A stretch of DNA of 60,164 bases from Lachnospiraceae bacterium (lineage in GTDB: Bacteria > Bacillota > Clostridia > Lachnospirales > Lachnospiraceae). The stretch covers positions 1 to 60,164 of the forward strand of contig JAFUKJ010000108.1 of the NCBI GenBank assembly GCA_017467805.1, in the 5' to 3' direction. The notes under the pieces are model-generated. The model was not told where the DNA came from. It did no database searches and saw only the letters and a list, made by a program, of their open reading frames with translations. This document shows, piece by piece, positions 52,232 through 54,363 of the stretch; position 1 is the first letter of the stretch; each line of letters opens with the position of its first letter. Position numbers and translations under genes: made by a program.

Positions 52232-52783
52232 TTATACAGTCAGGATTTCCTTTGACTTGTCTTCAATTGCCTTGTCGATATCCTTCACATACTTATCTGT
52301 AAGCTTCTGAACAGATTCCTCTAAGCTCTTAATCTCATCTTCAGATACCTCTGTCTTAGCAAGCTTCTTGTATGCATCGTTTGCATCTCTTCTAATGTTA
52401 CGAATAGCAACCTTGGCATCCTCACCCTTCTTCTTAACATCCTTAACGAGTTCTTTACGTCTCTCCTCTGTTAACTCTGGGAACACAAGTCTGATAACTG
52501 TTCCATCGTTACTTGGTGTAATTCCGATGTCTGATGCCATGATAGCCTTCTCGATTTCACGAATCAGGCTCTTCTCCCATGGTGCAATCTGAATCATTCT
52601 TGCTTCTGGAACCGTAATATTACCAACCTGCTGAATTGGTGTAGGTGATCCATAATAATCTACCTTTAACTTATCCAATACGTGCGGATTTGCACGTCCT
52701 GCTCTGATTGTCAAATAATCTGCAAGAAGGAAATCGTATGCCTTCTGCATTTTCTCTTCATATGGTTTAATTCTCTCGTCCAT
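52232..52783 (-). CDS. frr: Ribosome recycling factor
   Basis: Frr splits post-termination ribosomes with EF-G. The 183 residues show the family blocks YLTIRAGRANPHVLD-like (about 25-40), VDYYGSPTPIQQVGNI, and the C-terminal helix KSLEESVQKLTDKYVKDID. It normally follows pyrH, and does so here by 22 bp. Confidence 0.98.
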   Translation of the reverse strand: MDERIKPYEEKMQKAYDFLLADYLTIRAGRANPHVLDKLKVDYYGSPTPIQQVGNITVPEARMIQIAPWEKSLIREIEKAIMASDIGITPSNDGTVIRLVFPELTEERRKELVKDVKKKGEDAKVAIRNIRRDANDAYKKLAKTEVSEDEIKSLEESVQKLTDKYVKDIDKAIEDKSKEILTV

Positions 52784-52805: not shown

Positions 52806-53501
52806 CTACACTGTAATTACAGTGCCATTTGACTTTCCTTTTGCTGTATTTGCTATACTATTCTCTTCATTCAGTCCGAAAATAGTCATTGGCATCTTAT
52901 TCTCCATGCAAAGAACTGCTGCAGCCAAATCCATAACGCCAAGCTGCTTATCAACTACTTCCTTAATCGGAATTGTATCATACTTCTTAGCATTCGGATT
53001 AAGCTTAGGATCTGAATCATATACGCCATCCACCGCTCTTGCAGATAAAATCATATCCGCTTCAATCTCGATTGCTCTTAATACTGTTCCCATATCTGTT
53101 GAAAAATAAGGATGGCCGATACCACCAGCAAAGAATACAACCTTTCCTTCCTTTAACGCACCAACTGCCTTATCCTAAGAGAAAAGCTCTGTAAATGCCG
53201 CACACTGGAACGGTGTAAATACCTCTGTCTGCATTCCTACATATCTGAAAATTTCTGATACATAAATACAGTTCATAACCGTTGCAAGCATACCAATCTG
53301 ATCTGCCTTAGTTCTGTCGATTGTCTCACTGGTACGTCCTCTCCAGAAGTTACCTCCTCCAATTACAATACCAACCTGAATATTCGAATCAACAAGCTCC
53401 TTCACCTGCATAGCAACCTTAGTTACTGTTGCTTCATCAAAGCCCATCTTCTTATCGCCTGCGAGTGCCTCACCACTTAATTTTAATAATATTCTTTGCA
53501 T
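52806..53501 (-). pseudogene. pyrH: UMP kinase gene interrupted by one in-frame TAG
   Basis: UMP kinase phosphorylates UMP to UDP. The frame of 231 codons has normal length and family sequence throughout: KLSGEAL at 7-13, GIVIGGGNFWRGR near 43-55, and ATVMNCIYV. Codon 109 is TAG (53175-53177), between FTELFS and DKAVGALKEGKVVFF. The downstream part continues in the same frame with FAGGIGHPYFSTD, the ARAVDGVYDSDP motif and the C-terminus, with no frameshift. A downstream ATG (53093) would make only an unfoldable C-terminal piece. As pyrH is generally essential, a sequencing or assembly error, a very recent mutation, or suppression are the options. Confidence 0.93.
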
Positions 53502-53526: not shown

Positions 53527-54363
53527 TTATTTTCTCTTCTTTACATCACTAAAGAATGATGTTGGACTTACATCTGCATAGCACTGTGAGCACATACCCT
53601 CAATAACTGCACCATTATTAATCTGTACAGACTTTGACTTGATGTTACCCATAACAATCGCTGATGTATCTAAAATTACAGGACCGTGTACATCAATATC
53701 ACCCTTTACAGCGCCTGCAATTACAGCGCTTGTCGCAAAGATATTACCAATGATTACAGAGCTCTGTCCAATCTTAACGCTTCCCTTGCTCTTAACTTCA
53801 CCATTAATCTGTGCTGACTCAGCATAAATCTCTGCTGCTGATGAATTACCGTTTACACTACCTGTAACATTTAACTTTCCCAAAATCTCGATGTTACCGT
53901 TAATATTACCGATTACATCCATATTACCACTGCTGCTGATATCACCAAGGATTGTCATACCCTCAGTAATCACTGCTGTATCAGAAGAAACCTCTACATT
54001 ATCTGTAAATACGCTTTCTTCCTTCAATGCTGTTGCATCTGTTGACTCATTCTCTATGTATACAGCTTCTGATAAATTCATCTCAACTTCATTCAAAAGC
54101 TCTTCTACTTCTTCATTAACTTCCTCTGCAAGTGTCGCATCGGCATCTGCAATACCATCATCAAGTGCTGCAACCTCCTGCTCAAGCATAGCCTCCAAAT
54201 CCTTAAGCTCATTGCCCTCAGTTCCGAATAAATCCTCTGATAATGATTCTACCTTCTCGTCCTCCATTACCATCTCGTTACCCAAATCTGCACTTGTTTC
54301 CTCTGGCATCAACTCATTAACTGCCTGTGACAAATCCTGCTTCAAATCCTGAAAAAAACCCAT
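53527..54363 (-). CDS. Bactofilin-family polymer-forming cytoskeletal protein with acidic N-terminal extension
   Basis: Residues about 1-135 are strongly acidic and low complexity, with Glu/Asp/Ala/Leu repeats. Residues about 135-255 form the bactofilin beta-helix: repeating GNINGNIEILGKLNVTG, KIGQSSVIIGNIFAT and GDIDVHGPVILD units with hydrophobic/Gly spacing. A short basic tail with a Cys-x-x-Cys follows. Bactofilins self-assemble without nucleotide and often scaffold envelope enzymes. It lies between a NodB deacetylase and pyrH, so a cell-wall role is plausible but inferred. It is longer than minimal bactofilins because of the acidic region. Confidence 0.85.
   Translation of the reverse strand: MGFFQDLKQDLSQAVNELMPEETSADLGNEMVMEDEKVESLSEDLFGTEGNELKDLEAMLEQEVAALDDGIADADATLAEEVNEEVEELLNEVEMNLSEAVYIENESTDATALKEESVFTDNVEVSSDTAVITEGMTILGDISSSGNMDVIGNINGNIEILGKLNVTGSVNGNSSAAEIYAESAQINGEVKSKGSVKIGQSSVIIGNIFATSAVIAGAVKGDIDVHGPVILDTSAIVMGNIKSKSVQINNGAVIEGMCSQCYADVSPTSFFSDVKKRK

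Follow-up and report, generated by a model that had tools for sequence, protein, structure and literature searches.

A single in-frame TAG in the pyrH gene of a draft Lachnospiraceae genome is probably a one-base consensus error

In a 60,164-nucleotide contig from a Lachnospiraceae bacterium (GenBank assembly GCA_017467805.1, contig JAFUKJ010000108.1; hereafter the window), the gene for UMP kinase, pyrH, is interrupted by a TAG codon close to the middle of its reading frame. The question raised by this locus is whether the TAG exists in the living cell or in the assembled sequence only. Were it genuine and fixed, synthesis of an essential enzyme would require the decoding of a codon that the bacterium uses elsewhere as a stop, which would be surprising. 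The initial annotation, made from the letters of the window, listed four options, namely a base-call error, a very recent nonsense mutation with a second pyrH elsewhere, an amber suppressor tRNA and programmed readthrough. In the analysis described below, a base error and a very recent mutation remain, while a second pyrH, a suppressor and readthrough find no support.

Translation of the minus strand from 53501 to 52806 yields pyrH, encoding a 231-residue UMP kinase with X standing for the TAG. The gene contains a single internal in-frame TAG, at codon 109 (53177-53175), is intact in the rest of its length, and ends with an ordinary TAG of its own at codon 232. With X at codon 109, the protein matches profile TIGR02075 (pyrH_bact) along its full length and above the cut-off of 243.9 bits, while the 108-residue front part alone falls under it. 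The translation and the profile score bear out the initial description of a lone in-frame TAG with UMP kinase sequence on both sides in the same frame. As assembled, pyrH cannot be translated in full under the standard code, owing to the TAG at codon 109, and the mechanical list of open reading frames gives its front part only (108 residues, 53175..53501). The plus strand of 52806-53501 contains several stops. The features of the locus are as follows.

52806..53501, minus strand: pyrH (UMP kinase); 231 codons and a stop, interrupted by one internal TAG; 277.1 bits against TIGR02075
53175..53177, minus strand: in-frame TAG, codon 109 of pyrH; a lysine codon in 36/36 congeners covering the codon
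53178..53501, minus strand: pyrH codons 1-108, the product expected if the TAG terminates translation; 117.1 bits against TIGR02075
52809..53174, minus strand: pyrH codons 110-231, frame kept past the TAG; on the lineage of the window, 11 changes here are silent and 1 is missense
52232..52783, minus strand: frr (ribosome recycling factor), intact, the next gene downstream of pyrH; 227.9 bits against TIGR00496, cut-off 149.1
53527..54363, minus strand: bactofilin-family gene, intact, the next gene upstream of pyrH; 79.2 bits against PF04519, cut-off 27.9

Downstream of frr, the undecaprenyl-diphosphate-synthase gene uppS passes its profile cut-off, and the gene that follows it gives a weak phosphatidate cytidylyltransferase match (111 bits against a cut-off of 385). 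The position of a bactofilin-family gene directly upstream of pyrH is common to the congener G010; the more usual neighbours of pyrH are rpsB and tsf.

Alignment of relatives at codon 109, which the initial annotation had suggested as a check, gives lysine in every congener that covers the codon. Specifically, a pyrH copy extending over codon 109 is present in 36 of the 38 other congeners searched, and all 36 encode lysine there, 28 with AAG and 8 with AAA. Among the best 80 of 586 named loci, 79 encode lysine and 1 encodes arginine at this position, and none has an inner stop; 10 of the 80 are congeners already counted, leaving about 70 new loci (69 lysine, 1 arginine). Across the aligned copies, ten of which are counted twice, residue 109 is K in 115/116 and R in 1, and is thus a nearly invariant lysine. 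Furthermore, a wider search of the family found a pyrH match in 387 of 397 genomes, and no inner stop is present in the 149 pyrH matches listed besides the window's own. In PMC12847342, an allosteric loop of the S. aureus enzyme is placed at residues 104-117; residue 109 of the window's protein may fall in the corresponding region.

In the genus, 39 genomes including the window's own were searched, and 37 have a pyrH match, 36 of them a single one; two have no match. The remaining genome, G021, has pyrH broken over two contig ends, C46 (L062, G021:C46:1-600) and C92 (L063). The C46 fragment starts at residue 116, so that L062 is excluded from the codon-109 counts, and it carries an internal TAG within the first 109 bases of the contig, at a codon other than 109. 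In the overlap, C92 agrees with C46 for 60 bases and then differs at 9/49, with no inner stop; the TAG of C46 lies in this differing stretch. We interpret that TAG as a fault of the contig end or as the result of mixed strains. A doubtful pyrH stop thus also occurs in another draft assembly of the genus, beside a contig end. We did not accept it as a parallel case, because it lies at another codon and next to a contig end, whereas the TAG in the window is about 6.7 kb from the nearest one.

The age of the change can be judged from the frame on either side of the stop. The window's pyrH differs from that of its nearest relative, G010, at 59/696 bases. Fifty-six codons are silently different, 25 before the TAG and 31 after it, and the residue is the same at 229/231 positions, the exceptions being codons 109 and 118. 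Polarising the changes by the state that most of the other 35 congeners share assigns 12 silent base changes upstream of the stop to the lineage of the window since its split from G010; downstream of the stop, 11 changes are silent and a single one is missense. The latter falls at residue 118, a variable position for which the 36 copies in the genus show six residues (A 20, S 8, K 4, Q 2, D 1, E 1). In a sequence free of selection, missense changes are generally expected to outnumber silent ones by roughly 3:1. On that expectation, the stop can have existed during no more than a brief final portion of the lineage, if it existed at all. The pyrH frame after the TAG shows no decay, and the initial argument that a conserved frame past the stop speaks against old decay therefore holds.

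The assembly comprises 2,994,647 bases in 121 contigs, with a completeness of 95.25% and a contamination of 3.13%. It yielded no 16S rRNA gene, and since the same search missed the gene in 5/14 control genomes, this absence is weak evidence for a metagenome bin. Twenty-eight tRNA matches were found in the genome, with none for Ala, Ile, His or Phe. Taken together, the 121 contigs, the 16S result and the missing tRNAs make the assembly look like a draft metagenome bin. Within it, the pyrH protein has one match, and the AA_kinase matches number three, corresponding to pyrH, argB and proB. No second UMP kinase was found by the protein and AA_kinase searches of this 95.25% complete assembly, and the second pyrH that had been proposed to cover for the interrupted gene finds no support in the assembled part of the genome. 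A plasmid search returned 55 records, all with less than 60% identity. Aspartate kinase, which is expected in such a genome, is not among the three AA_kinase matches, perhaps owing to an assembly gap or a miss at first look.

Could the TAG be read as an amino acid? An amber suppressor tRNA, perhaps encoded in an unassembled part of the genome, would allow full-length UMP kinase to be made, and it could have been missed, as the tRNA set is incomplete. Against it, none of the 28 tRNA loci identified has a CUA anticodon, in a set that lacks four amino acids, and the PylS profile scores 25.0 and 23.5 bits, short of its cut-off of 178.15, on which ground pyrrolysine insertion was also rejected. RF1 and RF2 are both present and full length. 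TAG terminates 13/48 open reading frames of the window, TAA 30/48 and TGA 5/48 (non-overlapping frames of at least 100 residues chosen by a greedy script, with pyrH entered by hand as one), confirming the earlier remark that TAG is a normal stop in this genome. Moreover, inner stops are absent from all 184/184 matches in three domain families across the whole genome, counted within the matched domains (98/98 ABC_tran, 94 of them above cut-off; 46/46 BPD_transp_1; 40/40 Response_reg); PF01411, represented by one intact gene, was left out of this tally. RF1, the use of TAG as a terminator and the stop-free domains lead us to reject general recoding of TAG. We therefore regard a suppressor, whether an amber tRNA or the pyl system, as very improbable. 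A narrower form, in which the TAG is real and fixed in the species and a suppressor tRNA from an unassembled part of the genome permits synthesis of the essential UMP kinase, is more doubtful still; were it true, pyrimidine synthesis would hinge on amber suppression although TAG serves as a stop elsewhere in this bacterium. Programmed readthrough at the TAG, or a split enzyme produced by restart after it, would account for the frame being conserved past the stop. Yet no relative examined has a stop at codon 109, and from the TAG onward the folding of the RNA does not set it apart from its shuffles (z -0.18, with 77/200 shuffles at least as good). As for restart, the next in-frame start is an ATG at codon 137, 28 codons on, and inspection by eye of the 20 bases preceding this ATG reveals no evident ribosome-binding site. 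Both forms were rejected, and we give them next to no weight.

The two readings that remain are a wrong base and a very young mutation. A real nonsense mutation, very recent or at low frequency in the sampled population, might have entered the consensus before selection could eliminate it. A single substitution separates the TAG from the codon of G010, and the undecayed frame fits a very young change. However, pyrH is single-copy here, and deletion of pyrH is stated to be lethal in S. aureus in PMC12847342 (citing Lee et al. 2007), so that such an allele should be rare and seldom the consensus base. We consider this reading unlikely, although far from negligible. The alternative, which we favour with a probability of about 0.76 on the basis of sequence comparison, is that the TAG is a one-base consensus error in the draft assembly. 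The wrong base would have arisen from a read error, low local depth or strain mixing, and the living cell would most likely have one normal copy of pyrH, in which codon 109 specifies lysine. What is expected of a consensus error is seen here: the sense codon of close relatives, AAG in 28/36 congeners, is one substitution from TAG, and the frame beyond the stop is undecayed. A real recent mutation would produce the same pattern, and we infer an error in preference to it from priors and from the want of other support, not from reads.

Counted against an error is the good quality of the local sequence in other respects. The letters of the window are A, C, G and T only, the TAG is well away from either contig end, and 41/42 genes syntenic with G010 are without an inner stop (genes picked by eye as the longest open reading frame per place, with overlapping frames, many of them containing stops, dropped). 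The same 41/42 mark the TAG in pyrH as a lone event. Among the possible single-base changes in the window's pyrH, 89/2070 create a stop, a count that leaves out codon 109 and the last codon; a large scan should therefore meet such lone stops occasionally. The TAG in pyrH is thus to be treated as ordinary unless raw reads show otherwise, and the case mainly shows that, where a conserved single-copy gene in a draft assembly carries a lone nonsense codon, the reads should be consulted first.

The gene in the window resembles the bacterial UMP kinase PyrH (TIGR02075; amino-acid-kinase fold PF00696) in matching it over the full length with X and in being conserved along the entire frame, and differs from it by the in-frame TAG at codon 109, present in no relative examined. 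Amber suppression and TAG recoding are known kinds of systems. The case described here is like them in having an in-frame TAG inside a conserved gene, but differs in that no CUA tRNA or PylS was found, RF1 is present, TAG is used as a stop, and one gene only is affected. The third comparison is with false truncations, shortened predicted proteins being used as a sign of assembly errors in metagenome assemblies in PMC6785717. The truncations treated there concern insertions and deletions in long-read assemblies, whereas the window has one substitution; the two are alike in that a conserved gene of a fragmented assembly is disabled by a single isolated change.
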